A program made the translations under genes and the position numbers. Below, piece after piece: positions 4,200 to 11,827 of a stretch of DNA of 11,827 nucleotides. The stretch lies in assembly GCA_002690445.1 (NCBI GenBank), contig NZER01000007.1:1-11827 (forward strand). Reading direction: 5' to 3'. The first letter of the stretch is position 1; each line of letters begins with the position of its first letter. Source of the stretch: Candidatus Pacearchaeota archaeon (GTDB lineage Archaea; Nanoarchaeota; Nanoarchaeia; Pacearchaeales; GW2011-AR1). The notes under the pieces are model-generated. The model was not told where the DNA came from, made no database searches, and was given only the letters and a program-made list of their open reading frames with translations.

Positions 4200-4694
4200 C
4201 TAGTTGAGGGTACGAAGCAACTGTATGTCGAACTCCGCATCCGTCGAGCCTGCGGCGGTCAAAGCCTGTCCACAGACGATCATCTCAGTAAACGTGCTGC
4301 CAGCAACAATGTGTCGGCTGAGCTTACCTGAATCAGCGTCATCGTCCGGACCTACGCCATCACCCACGGCGATTGCCGTTCCGTGATCTCCACAGATACC
4401 GACGACTTTTCCGCCGACCTGCATCATGAAGTAATCAGAATTTGCAGGACCAGCAGAAGACGCTTCGGTTGGAACAAATCCGCAGATTTCCTCCGTTGCA
4501 GCATCCACCCTCTCGACAGTGTAAGCCGTGCGGCTCACCCATGTCAGAGCGGAACAACGAGGGACCGCCGCACCGTCAGCATTGAGTACCAAGCGGTACG
4601 AATTGCCATCGGGTAGCGTGATCAGTTTGCCCAGCACATCAGTATTGATTTCGGTCGTACTGTGTGAGAGAGCGAGAGGTAAAGAAATAGCCAT
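4200..4694 (-). CDS. Capsid decoration / cement-like protein
   Basis: A protein of 164 residues encoded directly after the major capsid gene. Gly, Ala, Val and Thr are abundant and it ends in the pattern FTEMIVCGQALTAAGSTDAE..., where a G-ALTAAG turn is followed by a short amphipathic strand. This resembles DUF2190-type capsid cement proteins, which trimerise on the head lattice and reinforce it against DNA pressure. The resemblance is by eye, so the family name is tentative. The start at 4694 (MAISLPLALS) is chosen because AGGAGG stands 5 nt before it in the 13-nt gap after the capsid stop codon. The frame stays open for another 77 codons upstream, but that extension lies inside the capsid gene and reads as a shadow. 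Expected to be highly expressed together with the coat protein. Confidence 0.65.
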   Translation of the reverse strand: MAISLPLALSHSTTEINTDVLGKLITLPDGNSYRLVLNADGAAVPRCSALTWVSRTAYTVERVDAATEEICGFVPTEASSAGPANSDYFMMQVGGKVVGICGDHGTAIAVGDGVGPDDDADSGKLSRHIVAGSTFTEMIVCGQALTAAGSTDAEFDIQLLRTLN

Positions 4695-4707: not shown

Positions 4708-5766
4708 CTAAGCGAGCGTTTTGAGTGCGAGGAACTTACGAGGGGAAATGAACTTACAATTCCCGAAAGTGGACAAGAGGAATTTATGAGCAAGCTGATC
4801 TTCATCGAAGACCATCCGCCCAGTTGCGATTTCCGAATTGAGGAACAGGATCTGCATGGCACTGAAGTTAAAGCCGTAGCCTTGAACAGTGTCAGCAGCG
4901 GTCTGCTCATCAACGGTCGGAACATCGATATCCCAGGTGACCGGGGTGCCGTCGATCTCTACATGATCTCCGAAACCCATAGCCAAAAGGGTCGCGTTCT
5001 TCGCGCTTGCGATGATACGCTCACTTCCATCCACCAAGTTGAGAAGATCGATGTATGAACCCCGGTTAAGGAGAATCAGGTCGAGCTTGTCATCATGACC
5101 GAAGGTCGTGTGCTTGATACCCGTTCGCAAACGTTCCAGCCCCTGGGTAGCCCAAGTCTGGGTGTTGTAGCCAGTATTGACCAAGACCGGAGACCAGAAG
5201 TCGTATTCCGGGCTATTGTCCGTACTGGTTCCACCATAGGTGCCTTTAACACTGCTAATGCCAGCGTAGGTTCCGGCATTGGTGCCGATCTCGTCACCAT
5301 TAACAGTACCCGACTCGTTCATGATAGTGTCGATTCCCTGGAATCGCTTGCTGTTGGCAGCAAGATCACCATCGATAAACAACTCTCCACAGAAGCGACG
5401 CTTCCACGCAGCTTTCATGCGGTCGAGCTTGTCTTCAACGATGTTGACGATCGCGCTTTTGCCACGATTCATCAGCCGTTCCTTTTCAGAAACAGCGTCA
5501 GTCATGACATAGCCACGATAGTCGATCGTTGCCTTCTTCTCGGTTACAACACGGGCGAAGTTAATCGTTTCCATGTCACCGTAACCGGTCAACTCATGGT
5601 CCTTGAAACCAACGGTCCATGAGGTCTGCGGTGCTGAAACGTTATATTTCAGCCGCTTCTTTTTCTGAAGCATCGCAAGAGCCACGCGGTTCTTGAGTTG
5701 CTCCTCATGCAAGCCCTTTGCCCAGTCCTCGATGGACGTAGCAAGAACTCGTTCAAATTCTGCCAT
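4708..5766 (-). CDS. Major capsid protein (HK97 fold)
   Basis: A protein of 352 residues, the expected size for a coat protein that uses a separate scaffold. The order of elements fits the HK97 fold: a charged helical N-arm (1-45), an E-loop-like beta region (about 47-85, SWTVGFKDHELTGYGDMETI), a long spine-helix candidate (about 92-128, EKERLMNRG...WKRRFCGELF), a FQGIDTIM turn near 142-149, an A-domain region that includes WATQGLERLR (205-214) and DLILLNRGSY (229-238), and a C-terminal strand ending FISPRKFLAL. It sits between scaffold and decoration genes, which supports the call. GGAGG precedes the ATG by 6 nt but lies in the arm of a hairpin whose loop is the scaffold stop, so translation is probably coupled to the scaffold gene. 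Confidence 0.85.
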   Translation of the reverse strand: MAEFERVLATSIEDWAKGLHEEQLKNRVALAMLQKKKRLKYNVSAPQTSWTVGFKDHELTGYGDMETINFARVVTEKKATIDYRGYVMTDAVSEKERLMNRGKSAIVNIVEDKLDRMKAAWKRRFCGELFIDGDLAANSKRFQGIDTIMNESGTVNGDEIGTNAGTYAGISSVKGTYGGTSTDNSPEYDFWSPVLVNTGYNTQTWATQGLERLRTGIKHTTFGHDDKLDLILLNRGSYIDLLNLVDGSERIIASAKNATLLAMGFGDHVEIDGTPVTWDIDVPTVDEQTAADTVQGYGFNFSAMQILFLNSEIATGRMVFDEDQLAHKFLLSTFGNCKFISPRKFLALKTLA

Positions 5767-6990: not shown

Positions 6991-7018
6991 ATTCTAATAT
7001 TTTAACCAAATCTTACAA
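6991..7018 (-). promoter_or_regulatory. Candidate internal promoter before the scaffold/capsid genes
   Basis: In the AT-rich 46-bp gap after the portal gene, minus-strand TTGTAA (7013-7018) and TAGAAT (6991-6996) are 16 bp apart, a plausible sigma70-type pair. It would give extra transcription of the 89-residue gene, scaffold and coat. The call rests on motif match alone. Confidence 0.35.
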
Positions 7019-9016
7019 GAAACCTCCACCCCCACCCATCGGTGCCGGAGCCGGGAAAACTGCTGCTCCCTGCGGCGGCAACGCTAAGGTGGGTGGCTGG
7101 GCACCAGCCCCGCCCCCTCCCTGCGGGACTGGCTGCTCTGGCGGAAGAGGCTGTACGGACAAGTAAACCCTCTGAGGATGTGCAATCATAAACGCATCGT
7201 ACAACAGATCCAGGCTTTTGTTATAGGTCGTGATGTCGATCTCTGGCGGTAGCTCAAGCGACAATTGCCCTACTCGATCCATGATCAATTGCGCCTGTTC
7301 CACGCGGAATTCCTGATCTGGCCTACGTGCAGACCCAGCCTCGATACGATAAGCGAACTCCCTGACGATATCGATATTATCCGAAAGCGACCCCGTATCT
7401 CTCCAGGCTACACTGGCAGTCACCGGTACTACTGAAATCTGAGCCATAGGCATGGTCGTTCGCACCATTTGCTGCGCATCCATCATTGCCTCGTCTGCTT
7501 CCTCCCGGGTTTCCCAGTAGGTGCCAAACTCTGGACTAAACTCTCTCACCTCTGCCAGTGTGAGTATCTCCCCGTCCACGAAGATCTCAAGTTTGTACCC
7601 ATAAATCTCGTCAGACCCGACTACCTTTTCAACATCTTTCCCATCCAGAAGGAACCGAGCAAGAATCGCTTCCTTGCGAGCCACCTCATTCTGCCAGTGC
7701 TCGACAAGGTCTGCCTTGTCATCAATCCTGGCACGAGAGTTCCTGTCCTTGATTGAGATCGCTTCCGCCGATCTCTCTGCAACCCGAGATCGACCGTACA
7801 GGATCTCCTGTAGCCCGGTCCTCTTCTCAAACAGATCAACCAGGAGCCGGAAGGTCTCTTTGAGATCTGTGGAGATGCCCGGATGCTCCAGCCATTGGAT
7901 CACCTCATTGATCGATCTCCCCTGCGCACCGGTAAGCGAGACAACTTCCAGATCCGCACCACTCGAAAGCTGGGAAATAACATTCTCATCTACGGACGGG
8001 TCCACCCCGATGATATCACGAGAAGCGTTCTTCGCTTTCGCTAGCATAAACGTAGCTAGGTAGTCGATTGCCTTCTGTTCCCCAAGTGCTGGCTTGAGTG
8101 GTGCGATAGGGTACAACTCCGAAGGGTGGGTGTGAAAGATAAGAGAGCTATGAAACCATTTCCCATCAAGAAATAATGGGGCGGGCCAATCCTCAATCGC
8201 CAAAGGACGCTCATGGCCGGGACAGAACACGATGTAGACGTTGTCTTCATCATCCGGAATGTCCTTCTTTATGTCTTCCTCGACCTCTTTGTATCTTACT
8301 CCGACCCCCATCTTTGAGAAAACCTCGTAAAAGACGACAAGATCTTGCGACACGCTTTTGGTGCTATGCTTGTCGTTCGTGTCTGCCAATGACATGGATT
8401 TTCCCAGATGAGAGGTCTTGTTCCCCTTGAGACCTTTGCTCGTCTTCGGAAACATCTTCTCCACAACCCAGAGAGGCTCGATCCTGCGCCTCGCAACCCA
8501 CCACATATCCTTGAAGCGACGCGCATCGGGATCAAAAACAATGTTGTCCACCGATTCATAGCTTGACCCCACTAATCCAGTATCTCGATCGTAGGAGGTC
8601 CAAAGGAAACCGAGACCGGAGATGAGCGCATCGTTAATCGCATCTCTTGACTCAACCCGAAGCCCATTTTCGTGAGGGGTATAGTTCAGGTAAGTCTCCA
8701 TCACGCTAGCTAGCGCAGCGTGAACTGGGTCTTTTGTCCTGGTTGTTATCGTTCTGATGGGGTTTTTTTGATAGAGAATGGGTCCAAACACTTCGACTAA
8801 CTCGAAAGTGAGGTTGATAGTCATCTGTGCCCAAGATTCATTCGCCGCCCACCCAGCGCTTTCGGCCTCGTCGTAGATGTGCGAATGATCACCAGCATAA
8901 AAGCGCAAAACGTCCTTGCGATCCTTATCGAATCGCTTCTTTTTCAGCTTAACCCCCGCATCGACCAGATCAGTCCAGATCGAAACGATTTTCTTGTTGC
9001 GTTCTTTCTTATCCAA
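7013..9016 (-). CDS. Portal protein
   Basis: A protein of 667 residues, in the size range of podovirus-type portals. The portal forms the dodecameric ring through which terminase pumps DNA and on which the head nucleates. Evidence: its place directly after terL; an N-terminal helical region with RFYAGDH near 38-44 and FGPILYQKNPIRTI near 76-89, typical of portal wing regions; and a long helical stem/crown C-terminus. The last 46 residues (622-667) are a Pro/Gly-rich low-complexity tail ending in a run of Gly, not needed for the usual portal core. The only available start is TTG at 9016, since an in-frame stop lies two codons upstream. GGAG stands 8 nt before it, and it overlaps the terL stop by 8 nt, so it is likely coupled to terL. 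Confidence 0.85.
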   Translation of the reverse strand: MDKKERNKKIVSIWTDLVDAGVKLKKKRFDKDRKDVLRFYAGDHSHIYDEAESAGWAANESWAQMTINLTFELVEVFGPILYQKNPIRTITTRTKDPVHAALASVMETYLNYTPHENGLRVESRDAINDALISGLGFLWTSYDRDTGLVGSSYESVDNIVFDPDARRFKDMWWVARRRIEPLWVVEKMFPKTSKGLKGNKTSHLGKSMSLADTNDKHSTKSVSQDLVVFYEVFSKMGVGVRYKEVEEDIKKDIPDDEDNVYIVFCPGHERPLAIEDWPAPLFLDGKWFHSSLIFHTHPSELYPIAPLKPALGEQKAIDYLATFMLAKAKNASRDIIGVDPSVDENVISQLSSGADLEVVSLTGAQGRSINEVIQWLEHPGISTDLKETFRLLVDLFEKRTGLQEILYGRSRVAERSAEAISIKDRNSRARIDDKADLVEHWQNEVARKEAILARFLLDGKDVEKVVGSDEIYGYKLEIFVDGEILTLAEVREFSPEFGTYWETREEADEAMMDAQQMVRTTMPMAQISVVPVTASVAWRDTGSLSDNIDIVREFAYRIEAGSARRPDQEFRVEQAQLIMDRVGQLSLELPPEIDITTYNKSLDLLYDAFMIAHPQRVYLSVQPLPPEQPVPQGGGGAGAQPPTLALPPQGAAVFPAPAPMGGGGGFL

Positions 9017-10808
9017 TGATCAATCTCCGGCTTTTTTTGTTGCCACCCGATTTCTTCTTCCAATATTCCGTGAATTCTTTGAATCGAGCGAAACCGTCTT
9101 CTTGCCTAGGCCTTAGTCTGTCGCTCCTGTCCTTGTATGGGTTCAGGTCCAGCAGCATCAAACCAATTGCCATAGACATCAGCCTATCATCATGCTTACC
9201 GGGAGTCGCTTGCCATTTCCGACTAGCAACTCCCCAAGCGAAGTCTTCCATCTCCTCTGAGAAGCCCTCATCATAGATCTTTAGCATCCGTTGTCGAGTA
9301 ACCATCCGCAAAACATCGAGCATTTCCCTGCGAGTCTTGACGTTGGTATTCCACCCCGGTCGATGCGCCCGTGCACGAGGAGTGTTCACATCTCTGTGCC
9401 AGTACAGATTTGGATACCGGAGATGGTAGGACAATCGACGGCAAACCTCCGGATTATGATTATTCTCCGGCGCAATTAGCGCTTTGTTATACCAGTGTCC
9501 CAGGCGGAAAAGCTGTTCGCACAACTCATCGCTATCCACCAGCGAGTGCATGGCAGCAACCGCTTCGACCTGCGATCTCTTCAAAACATAAGCGCTATGG
9601 TAGTCCCCGCCCGGAATACCCTCCGATACGTCCACCGATATGACGTACTTCTCACGAGATATTGGCTTCTCCCAAATATGGAGGCTTCCGTGAACGTTTG
9701 GATCGAAGATTGGGGTTCCCTCTCTCGATATCCCCATGTCTCCGATGACCTTCGGTTTTTGGATCTGCTCCCGGTAGTGTTTTTTCACTTCCTCTGAGAA
9801 GAACCGCTTCTGGGATACAGAGAAAGCGTCTCGCAGGGTCGCTGGGTAATATCGATCCCAGATCCCGTTCTCTCCGCCGCATTTGTTCTTTATGCACCAT
9901 CTTCTGTACTCAAATTGAGAGTCTTGGATCTCATAACCGGTCGTATCAAAAACTTCCCCACGAATGTGGTCTTCTTCCTGGGTGATCCGCCATCCCTTGT
10001 CCTTAATCGGCCTATCGTACTTATCGCAAATATACCAGGGCAGAAATATGACCTCAAAGTCATTGTCACCCTTCAATGCGCCCATGCACATGCGATAAAA
10101 GAACGCTTCGCGTCCATTTGCCGTGGATTCCAGCACAATCGCCGTCTCATGGTGATCGGGGATCGAACTTGCGACTGATGTCCACGCAAGCCACGGATCT
10201 TGCCCGGAATCCGCCCAGTTTGCCACCTCAGAGCCATGAAACAGGGTCGGAGTGGTGCCTTTCGCCAAGGCATCGCCGGATCGAGCGGTCATAACCATGT
10301 ATTTCGATCCGTGCGGCTCAACGTACTCTAGTTCAGTCTTGGCGCTGTACTTCAGCCCTCTCTGCATGTGCTGGGGCAAGAAATCGTAGAATCGCCGGGT
10401 GATCTGGAATATGTAAGAGCTTGATTCCGCATTATGGGCGACGACTGCGGCTTCCTCATGGTCCTGGTTATACAGCCGCTCAAAGAATATCGCTTGGATC
10501 AGGGTCGTCACTCCCTGCTTCCTCGCCTTCGGAATCAACATCCGAACCGGCTTCTTCTGGTCCCAGCACTGCCGGATCTTCCGGTACAGGATCTTCTGAC
10601 TCTCGTTCAATCTGAACGGTATCACCTTCTGATTCCCAGAATTCTCCTCCGATTCGTCCAGTTCCTCCGTTTCCACTGTCGTCCTCTGCTCCGCTGATAT
10701 CTTCAAGTAGTTTTCGATCCAGATCGCAGGCTCTTGCATCAAGCCCGAAGCCATTTCCTGAATCTCCTGGTTGCCCCCCAAGGATGTCAACGTATCGATT
10801 GATGGCAC
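9009..10808 (-). CDS. terL: Terminase large subunit (packaging ATPase/nuclease)
   Basis: A protein of 599 residues with both terminase domains. ATPase: deviant Walker A PKARKQGVTT (93-102), Walker B region LFHGSE with the catalytic-type Glu at 194, and coupling motif ESTANG (227-232). Nuclease, RNase H fold: Asp393 in SVDVSEG, Glu448 in APENN, and Asp540/Asp541 in KHDDRL. It cuts concatemeric DNA and drives it through the portal. The start is GTG at 10808, preceded by AGGAGG at 6 nt spacing. The first 109 codons overlap the upstream gene in another frame. Residues 40-62 are an acidic insertion between the usual N-terminal helix and the PFRLNESQ motif, and they fall in the overlap. The identification is secure. 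Confidence 0.95.
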   Translation of the reverse strand: MPSIDTLTSLGGNQEIQEMASGLMQEPAIWIENYLKISAEQRTTVETEELDESEENSGNQKVIPFRLNESQKILYRKIRQCWDQKKPVRMLIPKARKQGVTTLIQAIFFERLYNQDHEEAAVVAHNAESSSYIFQITRRFYDFLPQHMQRGLKYSAKTELEYVEPHGSKYMVMTARSGDALAKGTTPTLFHGSEVANWADSGQDPWLAWTSVASSIPDHHETAIVLESTANGREAFFYRMCMGALKGDNDFEVIFLPWYICDKYDRPIKDKGWRITQEEDHIRGEVFDTTGYEIQDSQFEYRRWCIKNKCGGENGIWDRYYPATLRDAFSVSQKRFFSEEVKKHYREQIQKPKVIGDMGISREGTPIFDPNVHGSLHIWEKPISREKYVISVDVSEGIPGGDYHSAYVLKRSQVEAVAAMHSLVDSDELCEQLFRLGHWYNKALIAPENNHNPEVCRRLSYHLRYPNLYWHRDVNTPRARAHRPGWNTNVKTRREMLDVLRMVTRQRMLKIYDEGFSEEMEDFAWGVASRKWQATPGKHDDRLMSMAIGLMLLDLNPYKDRSDRLRPRQEDGFARFKEFTEYWKKKSGGNKKSRRLIIG

Positions 10809-11136
10809 TCTGTGCCTCCTTTACTGACGGAAGTGGTTGCCCGGATTGCAGATTAGTGATCTGAACATTCATGTTATCTGGCGCTACGGACGATATTTTC
10901 TTCTCCAACGCGATCGCGCTGAGAGTGAGGTCCAACCCCGATTTGTGTAACGAGGCCAGTAGCTTCGCAGCCGCCAGCATGATGTTGGCATTTCCACGCG
11001 CACGAGCCACCTCCACCGCTTCGTTTACCAGTGCCCGGATCTCATCGGGATGCGATTGCCCGATGATCGCTTCGGCCTGCCTCTGCACAAATTGCAGATT
11101 CTCCTGCATCGTCTCTGTCCGCTCCAAAGCGGTCAT
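10480..11136 (-). CDS. terS: Probable terminase small subunit
   Basis: A protein of 218 residues starting MTALERTETMQ. The first 105 residues are mostly helical (repeated Ala/Leu/Glu, e.g. NANIMLAAAKLLASLHKSGL), suiting an oligomeric DNA-recognition subunit, but I see no clear helix-turn-helix. Residues 110-218 are Gly/Ser/Asp/Glu-rich and strongly acidic at the end (SGAEDDSGNGG, GSDVDSEGEE), and are encoded in the 329 bp that also encode the start of terL. The call comes mainly from position: first gene of the operon, directly before terL. GGAG stands 9 nt before the chosen ATG at 11136; a second in-frame ATG at 11109 is possible. Codons upstream of 11136 run through promoter-like DNA and are unlikely to be translated. 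What else it could be: a small unknown regulator. Confidence 0.6.
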   Translation of the reverse strand: MTALERTETMQENLQFVQRQAEAIIGQSHPDEIRALVNEAVEVARARGNANIMLAAAKLLASLHKSGLDLTLSAIALEKKISSVAPDNMNVQITNLQSGQPLPSVKEAQSAINRYVDILGGQPGDSGNGFGLDARACDLDRKLLEDISGAEDDSGNGGTGRIGGEFWESEGDTVQIERESEDPVPEDPAVLGPEEAGSDVDSEGEEAGSDDPDPSDIL

Positions 11137-11184
11137 AGACGGCAACTCCAACGCTTGGGCTTTCGTTTTGTGTATCACAGCCAA

Positions 11185-11219
11185 ATCATACCAAATACAT
11201 AACCAGAAGCGAAAGTCAA
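11185..11219 (-). promoter_or_regulatory. Candidate promoter of the terminase/head operon
   Basis: On the minus strand, TGGTATGAT gives an extended -10 (TGn plus TATGAT, hexamer at 11185-11190) about 48 nt before the terS ATG. A TTGACT (11214-11219) lies upstream, but 23 bp from that -10; paired with TATTTG (11192-11197) its spacing is 16 bp. An A-rich run (complement of 11231-11239) further upstream resembles an UP element. Which hexamers are used cannot be told from sequence. Confidence 0.45.
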
Positions 11220-11244
11220 TAAGAAAGCATTTCTTTTTTCCGTG

Positions 11245-11272
11245 TTTACTTTCCTGGGTGCTCTGATAGAAT
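11245..11272 (+). promoter_or_regulatory. Candidate divergent rightward promoter
   Basis: TTTACT (11245-11250) and TAGAAT (11267-11272) are 16 bp apart, and TGA precedes the -10 hexamer to make an extended -10 (TGATAGAAT). It points away from the terminase operon into the structured non-coding block and would start RNA near 11279. The motif match is good but unproven. Confidence 0.45.
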
Positions 11273-11278
11273 GTCCCC

Positions 11279-11445
11279 GTGGTCATCGGAGTCCACACTA
11301 CGAGCGTCACCTGCTCTGAGTGGTGAGCCACGGTGGGAGCAGATCCACCACTTCTCGATCGGGCGCGTCATCTCAACTGATCGAGATCTCCTGAAAGTGG
11401 TGCGGATAGCGATCTCGCATAGCGAGTCCGCACCACTTTTTTTTT
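11279..11445 (+). ncRNA. Candidate small RNA or attenuated leader, about 165 nt
   Basis: The segment lies between a candidate promoter and a strong intrinsic terminator, holds no convincing gene and is rich in inverted repeats. Four octamers alternate in sense: GAGTGGTG (11318-11325), CACCACTT (11346-11353), AAGTGGTG (11395-11402) and CACCACTT (11431-11438). Pairing 1:2 allows the 3:4 terminator; pairing 2:3 blocks it. Between elements 2 and 3, CTCGATC (11354-11360) pairs with GATCGAG (11379-11385), which would stabilise the 2:3 form. The layout is that of a transcription attenuator. No known riboswitch or RNA family is recognised. Alternatives are a free-standing regulatory RNA or simply repeat-rich DNA at a packaging site. 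Confidence 0.4.
11394..11445 (+). terminator. Strong intrinsic terminator with bipartite stem
   Basis: AAAGTGGTGCGGA (11394-11406) pairs perfectly with TCCGCACCACTTT (11427-11439), a 13-bp stem. Inside it CTCGC-ATA-GCGAG (11414-11426) forms an apical hairpin. Nine T residues occupy 11437-11445. The orientation is plus strand, so it would stop rightward transcription and does not end the terminase operon. Confidence 0.8.
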
Positions 11446-11520
11446 ATGCTTGCAATTTCAAATCTCGATGTTAAAATCAGCGCTTAAGAAGCTGATAAAA
11501 GGCGCGATCTCGCATAGCGA
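11409..11520 (+). repeat. Perfect 17-nt direct repeat (two copies)
   Basis: GCGATCTCGCATAGCGA occurs at 11409-11425 and again at 11504-11520, 95 bp apart. Both copies contain the small TCGC-ATA-GCGA hairpin at the tip of a larger stem. A partial match, CGATCTCGC, occurs at 11740-11748. The span given covers both full copies and the sequence between them. Confidence 0.75.
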
Positions 11521-11597
11521 TTGAGCCGCGCCAAGCGACGCAAAGCAGGAGCGATTCGGCGCGGCGCTCATATCCTATATGCGAAAGCGCTGATTTT
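11473..11597. repeat. 125-nt imperfect cruciform / long stem-loop
   Basis: Nested inverted segments: AAAATCAGCGCTT (11473-11485) with AAGCGCTGATTTT (11585-11597); TCGCATA (11510-11516) with TATGCGA (11578-11584); and TGAGCCGCGCC (11522-11532) with GGCGCGGCGCTCA (11558-11570), the last with a 2-nt bulge. The two right-hand outer arms are contiguous, while the left side has a 24-nt interruption. A local alternative also exists, GGCGCG (11501-11506) with CGCGCC (11527-11532). It has no proper T-tract in either direction, so it is not an ordinary terminator. It may be an RNA structure, a protein-binding DNA site or an origin/packaging element. Confidence 0.65.
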
Positions 11598-11641
11598 GCA
11601 ATAGCTCTACTTACTAGTACCTCACTAGTCTCCGCTATTCA

Positions 11642-11721
11642 ATCCCGTTATCTCAGACCAACTTGTGGTTACTTCTAGTTCCCACCTCCCCCGGTCGCCA
11701 GAGATGACGGGATCTTTTTTT
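11642..11721 (+). terminator. Second rightward terminator with a long structured loop
   Basis: ATCCCGTTATCTC (11642-11654) pairs with GAGATGACGGGAT (11701-11713) over 13 bp with one G-U wobble, followed by seven T residues (11715-11721). Inside the 46-nt loop GACC (11656-11659) can pair with GGTC (11693-11696), and GTGG (11665-11668) with CCAC (11682-11685). So this is an extended stem with internal loops rather than a simple terminator, perhaps the 3' end of a structured RNA. Confidence 0.65.
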
Positions 11722-11765
11722 ATGAGGGGGGTCGGGGTTCGATCTCGCTTACGCTTCTCTCACCC

Positions 11766-11785
11766 AACCCCAGTTTTGGGTTTTT
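11766..11785 (+). terminator. Weak terminator-like hairpin
   Basis: AACCC (11766-11770) pairs with GGGTT (11778-11782) across a 7-nt loop and is followed by three further T residues. The stem is short, so support is thin. It is the third plus-strand terminator-like element in the block. Confidence 0.3.
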
Positions 11786-11804
11786 AGAGAGAATTTTTAG
11801 AGAG
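11781..11804. repeat. Tandem 11-nt direct repeat
   Basis: TTTTTAGAGAG occurs at 11781-11791 and 11794-11804, a 13-nt period. Short iterons of this kind can be protein-binding sites at replication origins or packaging sites; only two copies are visible before the window ends. Confidence 0.5.
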
Positions 11805-11827
11805 TGACTATACTAGTATTCTCAGAA

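Follow-up and report, generated by a model that had tools for sequence, protein, structure and literature searches.

All long genes with a family match in the DNA analysed here (the window, 11,827 nt at its full length) lie on the minus strand, and they include those of phage packaging and head formation:

4708-5766, minus strand, major head protein (E 3.1e-11)
7013-9016, minus strand, portal (E 5.7e-8)
9009-10808, minus strand, large terminase (PHROG 2, E 2.7e-16)

The frame ahead of the large terminase, like its counterpart in the related contig L010, gave no family match above threshold, and is assigned to the small-terminase slot by position alone. By eye, this gene may start at GTG 11178 (11176-11193, minus strand), six nt after an extended -10 (TGGTATGAT), and is possibly leaderless; at the same gene, L010 and a second relative, L001, instead have a leader with an RNA element and a terminator. 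If 11178 is its start, no convincing gene was seen from there to the window end. The features considered below lie on the plus strand of this gene-poor stretch, with the octamer and terminator site directed away from the terminase:

11245-11272, plus strand, promoter-like site from a consensus scan (TTTACT, 16 nt, TAGAAT, TG before), predicted start near 11279
11279-11447, plus strand, predicted small RNA of ~169 nt, with start and end taken from the promoter-like site and the terminator
11294-11355, plus strand, conserved RNA core of ~60 nt, also present in nine further instances from seven additional viral records
11302-11316, plus strand, covarying hairpin P1 (GAGC 11302-11305 with GCTC 11313-11316, 7-nt loop GTCACCT 11306-11312)
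11307-11326, plus strand, probable pseudoknot (loop TCACC 11307-11311 with GGTGA 11322-11326)
11318-11325, plus strand, octamer 1 (GAGTGGTG), overlapping the 3' strand of the pseudoknot
11332-11349, plus strand, hairpin P3 (GGTGG 11332-11336 with CCACC 11345-11349, loop GAGCAGAT 11337-11344)
11346-11353, plus strand, octamer 2 (CACCACTT), overlapping the 3' arm of P3 and able to pair with octamer 3 in this phage only
11353-11386, plus strand, hairpin TCTCGATC / GATCGAGA between core and terminator (-14.1 kcal/mol)
11394-11445, plus strand, predicted intrinsic terminator with a 13-bp stem (octamers 3 and 4), inner hairpin CTCGC-ATA-GCGAG and T run 11437-11445
11395-11402, plus strand, octamer 3 (AAGTGGTG), in the 5' arm of the terminator
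11431-11438, plus strand, octamer 4 (CACCACTT), in the 3' arm of the terminator
11450-11477, plus strand, second promoter-like site (TTGCAA, 16 nt, TAAAAT, TG before), directly behind the terminator

A strong intrinsic-terminator-like hairpin is thus predicted to close a structured RNA in the window, and the simplest unit would be the RNA of ~169 nt, transcribed rightward. Positions 11270-11450 are more stably folded than shuffles (z = -3.14), and the consensus scan found three promoter-like sites in 10800-11827 (mean of 0.9 in shuffles).

The preliminary description of this site, made from the letters, had proposed a trp-style attenuator in which octamers 1:2 and 3:4, or alternatively 2:3, would pair. 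A script readback of the letters recovered the four octamers in that order, a terminator stem complementary at 13/13 positions (11394-11406 / 11427-11439) and the run of nine T, three of which fall within the stem, while the additional stem said to sit inside the 2:3 form is present with 8 bp (11353-11360 / 11379-11386) rather than 7. Pairings 2:3 and 3:4 are perfect, and 1:2 contains one G.U; a simple terminator scan with an 8-nt loop limit had left this terminator unlisted. Chance was evaluated post hoc throughout, with dinucleotide shuffles of 11279-11393 in which the terminator arm was kept fixed (n = 2000). An 8-nt Watson-Crick competitor for the terminator arm appeared in 19/2000 shuffles, and the strict chain of such a competitor with its own 8-nt upstream partner in 0/2000 (19/2000 with G.U allowed throughout); chains of 7 nt were reached in 1/2000 (strict) and 138/2000 (G.U). 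For 11191-11827 as a whole, a run of three perfect alternating octamers spanning at most 130 nt was found in 3/2000 shuffles, and the 2:3 competitor alone in 39/1000 of a mononucleotide control. The octamer chain is unlikely to be a product of chance.

Close terminase relatives are few: L001 (80%), L008 (71%) and L009 (69%) in IMG/VR, as well as L010 and L011 (terminase 80%), two contigs of a bin named Chloroflexi whose upstream regions are 99% mutually identical. L008 stops 463 nt short of the large terminase gene and was left out of the judgement, and the conserved core is absent from L009, whose noncoding region was searched. Aligned in register with L001 and L010/L011, the octamer segment is not conserved; the 40-48 bp around the second promoter-like site are 81-83% conserved in the same contigs. 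Over ~55-60 nt, the plus strand of the window is similar to the opposite strand in L010 (score 45) and L001 (score 44). This stretch was picked after the resemblance had been noticed by eye, and the scores were reached by 1/2000 (L010) and 0/2000 (L001) shuffles, against 495 and 1194/2000 for the other strand. When the entire noncoding region was compared, 0/300 shuffles reached the opposite-strand score for L010 and 31/300 for L001. In both of these relatives, the core-bearing strand heads toward the packaging genes.

A search pattern drawn from this element (TCACCT-N4-8-GTGGTGAG-N5-15-AGCAGA) matched 10 stretches in IMG/VR, namely the L001 contig, three duplicates, L028, and L023, L024, L027 (two copies), L029 and L031. 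L028 was dropped (16.3 bits, E 0.05, coding by eye), as were the duplicates L025 (100% to L023 over 10,250 nt), L026 (100% to L024 over 7,317 nt), L030 (100% to L029 over 4,201 nt), L011/C25 (99% to L010) and other copies of the L001 contig. Among 400 Chloroflexota genomes, the pattern occurred in one (G001), only on two phage-gene-bearing contigs, and a tightened pattern likewise found only two G001 contigs among 393 genomes of the class (partly the same genomes), so that an element of the Chloroflexota host was rejected. The second copy of that genome (C20b, contig C20) lies 25.7 kb from the first. A reversed control pattern gave 0 matches, a looser pattern yielded no further instances in 12 records, and model R1 added only weak sites (≤ 19 bits) on 11 records. 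With stricter filters, R1 reported eight further genomes of the 400, at 22.8-27.8 bits. The sites in L071 and L072 (the two highest-scoring), in L073 and at the weak second position of G405 (L065, 19 bits) were taken as chance, since in every one of them P3, the GUGGUGAG block or the GUCACCU loop, or more than one of these, was missing, and all four lay inside a stop-free frame of at least 108 codons.

Overall, 10 distinct instances were retained from eight viral records and about five lineages, which group by the sequence examined as the window with L001 and L010, L023 with L031 (five common proteins), L024, L027, and L029. Between the sequence stretches compared, no protein of at least 100 aa matched across these five groups at E 1e-5. 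Independently of the pattern, blastn found that the DNA common to the window group and L027/L024 is the core alone (40-48 nt, 82-94%); in L027, window positions 11303-11350 are the sole common DNA (83%, 48 nt, E 1.7e-7). DNA comparisons with annotated phages gave no similarity or short matches only, including one to Gordonia phage Kvothe that was checked and dismissed.

Several of these records show further features around the core. L029 has 96-139 nt of DNA in common with L023 and L031 away from the core, a block (e.g., L029 1911-2040) that overlaps the tRNA match of L029. By eye, a TTAGTC block lies 3' of the core in L029, L031 and C20b (in the L029/L031 version, TTAGTCGT-GGNGTGAGCACG), which suggests a larger RNA in some instances. 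Also by eye, the two cores of L027 (G407; 1430-1490 and 4428-4488), separated by 3 kb, have similar flanking sequences, and a frame of uncertain start follows each of them at ~150 nt.

On comparative grounds, positions 11294-11355 belong to a conserved family of phage RNA elements, with two predicted hairpins that covary and a probable pseudoknot. The window core has the P1 loop GUCACCU, the block GUGGUGAGYC and the P3 loop RAGCAGAN that define the family (alignment A5, pair counts and model R2). Twenty letters are constant by construction of the search pattern; unfixed yet recurring are the stems of P1 and P3, the G that precedes and the RC that follows TCACCT, and the YC that follows GTGGTGAG. 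With the caveat of the covariation tool that related sequences may exceed shuffles without structure, 96.6% of 119 cells were paired (85.1% in shuffles, 0/500), double-change cells numbered 15 (4.4, 0/500), the covariation score was 0.330 (0.095, 0/500), and four pairs changed on both sides (2.2, 10/500), while further pair types were not above shuffles (7 vs. 6.8, 321/500). Slid controls gave at most one double-change cell. In P1, columns 10:22 are CG in four sequences, AU in three and GC in three, and columns 12:20 are UA in five and CG in three, with two unpaired (L023 and L031); in P3, columns 43:56 show four pair types (AU5, GC3, CG1, UA1), and the outermost pair is broken in two sequences. 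The pseudoknot between loop GUCACCU and GGUGA is probable: its strands are complementary and invariant in 10/10 instances, with letters set by the search pattern, so that covariation of this pairing is not assessable. Model R2 was built from the six sequences of the other groups, with neither the window nor its terminase relatives included; it matches the window at 54.7 bits, with an E-value (~1e-15) that overstates independence because of the pattern-fixed letters. It matches L001, L010 and C20b at 57.7-64.6 bits, and the next best match in 230 kb scored 10.3 bits.

This conserved fold bears directly on the proposed switch. Folding of growing prefixes, sampled every 3 nt (an equilibrium prediction without pseudoknots, and not a kinetic simulation), leaves 1:2 barely populated (mean P ≤ 0.04 at all sampled prefixes), and forcing it in the full RNA costs 5.2 kcal/mol. 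Octamer 2 is paired in these folds with 11332-11336 or with the RNA 5' end instead of octamer 1. Pairing 2:3 is transient, with a mean P of 0.88-0.89 at ends 11402-11405 (0.88 at 11402), 0.00 at 11414 and ≤ 0.20 later; while formed, it depresses P1 and P3. The least-pair probability of P1 is 0.76-0.99 at 19/22 sampled prefixes and 0.19-0.30 at three, and that of P3 varies from 0.01 to 0.90 with length (0.17 at the end) as rival pairings compete in these pseudoknot-free folds. In the full RNA, P1 with P3 reaches -68.8 against a minimum of -70.4, i.e., 1.6 kcal/mol above, so energy alone does not select the conserved fold.

Among relatives, 1:2 complementarity occurs in 1/10 instances and 2:3 complementarity in 1/5 terminator-bearing instances, in both cases the window only. 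The loss of complementarity between octamers 1 and 2 in homologues is what the preliminary description had itself named as speaking against its switch, and stem 3:4 is also not kept in the nearest phage relatives. Octamer 1 lies within AGUGGUGAG, which is found in 9/10 instances (GUGGUGAG in 10/10, with letters mostly pattern-fixed) and probably used in the pseudoknot, and octamer 2 overlaps the 3' arm of the covarying hairpin 11332-11336/11345-11349; 1:2 would therefore break both the pseudoknot and P3. No leader peptide was seen among the listed plus-strand frames of at least 50 aa across the RNA; leader-peptide attenuation was rejected, as the lone such frame starts at 11271 inside the -10 box and reads through the terminator. 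No convincing rightward gene was found in the 382 nt from the terminator to the window end, whereas in L001, L010 and C20b a terminator does stand ahead of a gene. A trp-style attenuator shares with this site a terminator and a possible competing pairing (2:3), and differs from it in that here there is no leader peptide, 1:2 does not form and the pairings are unconserved. Although the octamers are real and improbable by chance, and 2:3 forms in passing, we consider such an attenuator very improbable in this phage, and reject the four-octamer switch since 1:2 is hardly populated and the pairings are not kept in relatives. Pairing 2:3 could still act in this phage alone, adding a switch of its own.

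It is even less credible that the terminator merely insulates two rightward promoters, with the octamers a coincidence or a degenerate duplicated hairpin. The terminator does end 5 nt before the second promoter-like site and is the final fold, with a probability of 0.92-0.99 at the transcript end, but this reading leaves the conserved core directly upstream unexplained.

The noncoding region contains other repeats. The -10 box of the second promoter-like site falls within a 13-bp inverted repeat (11473-11485 / 11585-11597). Such arms are retained in L001 and L010 at start-to-start distances of 134 and 126 nt, with changes that compensate one another (AAAATCAGCG vs. AAAATTGGCG), which could reflect a further structured RNA or else a pair of operator sites. 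The 17-mer GCGATCTCGCATAGCGA is repeated exactly at 11409-11425 and 11504-11520, with a variant at 11740-11754, and has no exact match in IMG/VR. A third hairpin (GGGG..CCCC, by eye) is found at ~11726-11770 in the window, 1630-1690 in L001 and 4090-4150 in L010, with a conserved loop (CGCTTACGCT). In L001 and L010, this loop could pair over 14 nt (13 Watson-Crick) with part of the inverted repeat that lies behind the second promoter-like site. Finally, AGAGAATTTTTA(T)AGAGAG (11788-11812) is conserved in the window, L001 and L010 (as GAGAATTTTTAGAGAG in L009) within noncoding DNA that is otherwise hardly alignable, and is a candidate promoter or origin motif.

The preliminary description recognised no known leader or riboswitch here, and Rfam 15 scans were likewise without a credible match: at gathering scores, there were 0 matches in the window and, across eight loci, only tmRNA and tRNA matches in L029/L030, off the core. 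When the scans were made permissive (window, L010, L001 and L027), all matches stayed below threshold; among them was the Listeria sRNA sbrA, which overlaps the core and terminator of L001 (17.9 bits, E 1.7), far below its gathering score of 45, and was unlisted for the window, L010 and L027. Catalogued Rfam RNAs, ribozymes included, were rejected at threshold. A tandem array of cores, as sought for a ToxI RNA of a type III toxin-antitoxin system, was not found in 11180-11827, and the window holds a single full-length core match.

Among known phage systems, the immunity RNAs of P4 (CI RNA) and P1 (c4 antisense RNA) are short, contain repeated complementary segments and are tied to premature termination, and the element resembles them in being a short phage RNA with complementary segments and a link to termination. 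The models gave no match above 8.6 bits in the P4 genome and half of P1 (which may not contain c4), the Rfam scans gave no hit, and the P4 immunity RNA was rejected by model search. Late control in lambda (pR', tR' and Q) resembles L001 and L010 in having a terminated leader RNA before late genes; Q, however, acts via a DNA site near the promoter, whereas the conserved feature here is an RNA fold. To our knowledge, phages other than the lambdoid ones have yielded few known antitermination or leader RNAs. As far as titles and abstract openings show, such a motif is not named in the literature found, which does not prove that it is unpublished.

The put RNAs of HK022 are described as processive antitermination elements of ~70 nt with two stem-loops that act on terminators even 10 kb away (PMC9378689). 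Our element is likewise a short structured phage RNA, present in two copies in some genomes and related to terminators. It differs from put as so described in that the terminator is close by and in its fold of two hairpins, the first of them short and probably knotted through its loop. On the whole HK022 genome, the top matches of R1 and R2 were fragments of 16 and 12 nt, at 11.1 and 10.1 bits (true instances scoring 50-72 bits), and put was rejected as a match by model search. EAR, canT and conAn2, from Bacillus, Tn916 and a conjugative plasmid, are also credited with polymerase passage through terminators, and are set beside the element here by description (PMC11658703).

A terminator with a 9-15 bp stem occurs within 130 nt after the core in 5/10 instances (the window, L001, L010, C20b and L024), against a background of 57/775 windows with a terminator stem of at least 6 bp (L027 counted twice), and none occurs over that distance in the other five (L023, both copies of L027, L029 and L031). 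By lineage this support is 2/5, as four of the five cases belong to one phage group. In L001, L010 and C20b, the terminator stands between the core and a gene start, with only 22-24 nt from the T run to the start codon (counted in the sequence). In L001 and L010, core and terminator are oriented opposite to those of the window and immediately precede the gene that comes before the large terminase, and thus the gene with which the packaging and head operon opens. In C20b, they are followed by a 73-aa frame and an Mgm101-type recombination gene, so that the L010 phage has two sites of this kind. The L023 core is flanked by DnaN-type clamp and SSB genes on the same strand, with SSB behind, and in L027 frames without a family match follow both copies. 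The window and L024 have the terminator with no gene directly behind, the L024 core and terminator being placed between convergent frames. The L029 core (1065-1126) lies 66 nt upstream of a match to the alphaproteobacterial tmRNA (RF01849, match region 1193-1552), and the permuted tmRNA model RF04321 starts 108 nt on from the core, in a viral contig; ARAGORN found no gene in the window or seven loci and so does not confirm this tmRNA match.

We tentatively favour, at somewhat short of an even chance, a phage RNA element that would govern read-through at adjoining terminators in the manner of antitermination or attenuation, rather than by an octamer switch. Control of termination, as proposed in the preliminary description, thus stays the best reading, although not through the four octamers, because the core precedes a gene-preceding terminator in three related loci (L001, L010 and C20b). 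The 22-24 nt between T run and start codon leave hardly any space for a further promoter, and the polymerase must pass the terminator to reach the gene unless a promoter overlaps it, which favours control of read-through. No upstream competitor of the terminator arm beyond chance was found in L001, L010, C20b or L024 (reached in 953, 832, 833 and 562 of 1000 shuffles, respectively), so no pairing switch is visible there, and such control would more likely proceed via a bound factor or the polymerase than via pairing; put, too, is described as working through the polymerase rather than pairing (PMC9378689). In this scheme, the core would be transcribed rightward from ~11279 in an RNA ending at the terminator 11394-11445, RNA polymerase or a trans-acting factor would recognise the folded core on the nascent RNA, and this recognition would set how often the polymerase passes the adjacent terminator. 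In the window, where the core is reversed relative to the nearest phages, read-through would enter the noncoding region to the right. The stronger proposal, that of a new class of phage antitermination RNA (pseudoknotted, found in separate lineages at one or two per genome, and carrying the polymerase through an adjacent terminator with no competing hairpin), is rather doubtful at present.

Alternatively, the core may belong to a stand-alone small RNA that binds a protein or RNA in trans, with the terminator merely its 3' end; where it precedes genes, it would be either a processed leader or an RNA gene packed against other genes. For the window and L024 this is nearly as good as control of read-through, given a core between a promoter-like site and a terminator with a second promoter-like site at once after in the former, and between convergent frames in the latter. 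The short distance from T run to start codon in L001, L010 and C20b, as well as the L023 core between same-strand clamp and SSB genes, nonetheless fits control in cis better, and for the element as a whole we regard a stand-alone RNA as a serious if somewhat unlikely alternative. Less probable still is a cis element for processing, stability or translation (a self-cleaving ribozyme, a 5' stabiliser or a ribosome-linked RNA) next to incidental terminators. Such a role would suit a compact, highly conserved fold found in varied contexts (SSB, the permuted-tmRNA match, family-less genes, two copies in one phage) and the five instances without a terminator behind, but terminators behind the core are commoner than background and the core has no counterpart among Rfam families, ribozymes included, at threshold.

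Whichever of these roles applies, the core recurs in eight viral records from about five lineages without a detected common protein, and a striking ladder of octamers such as that of the window can be largely a by-product of an adjacent conserved fold. Its size makes the core accessible to direct structural study, and its position in the closest relatives is ahead of the packaging and head genes. A defined RNA with a covariance model may thus offer a way to study how such genes are switched on in little-known phages, of which one was binned with an uncultured Chloroflexi.
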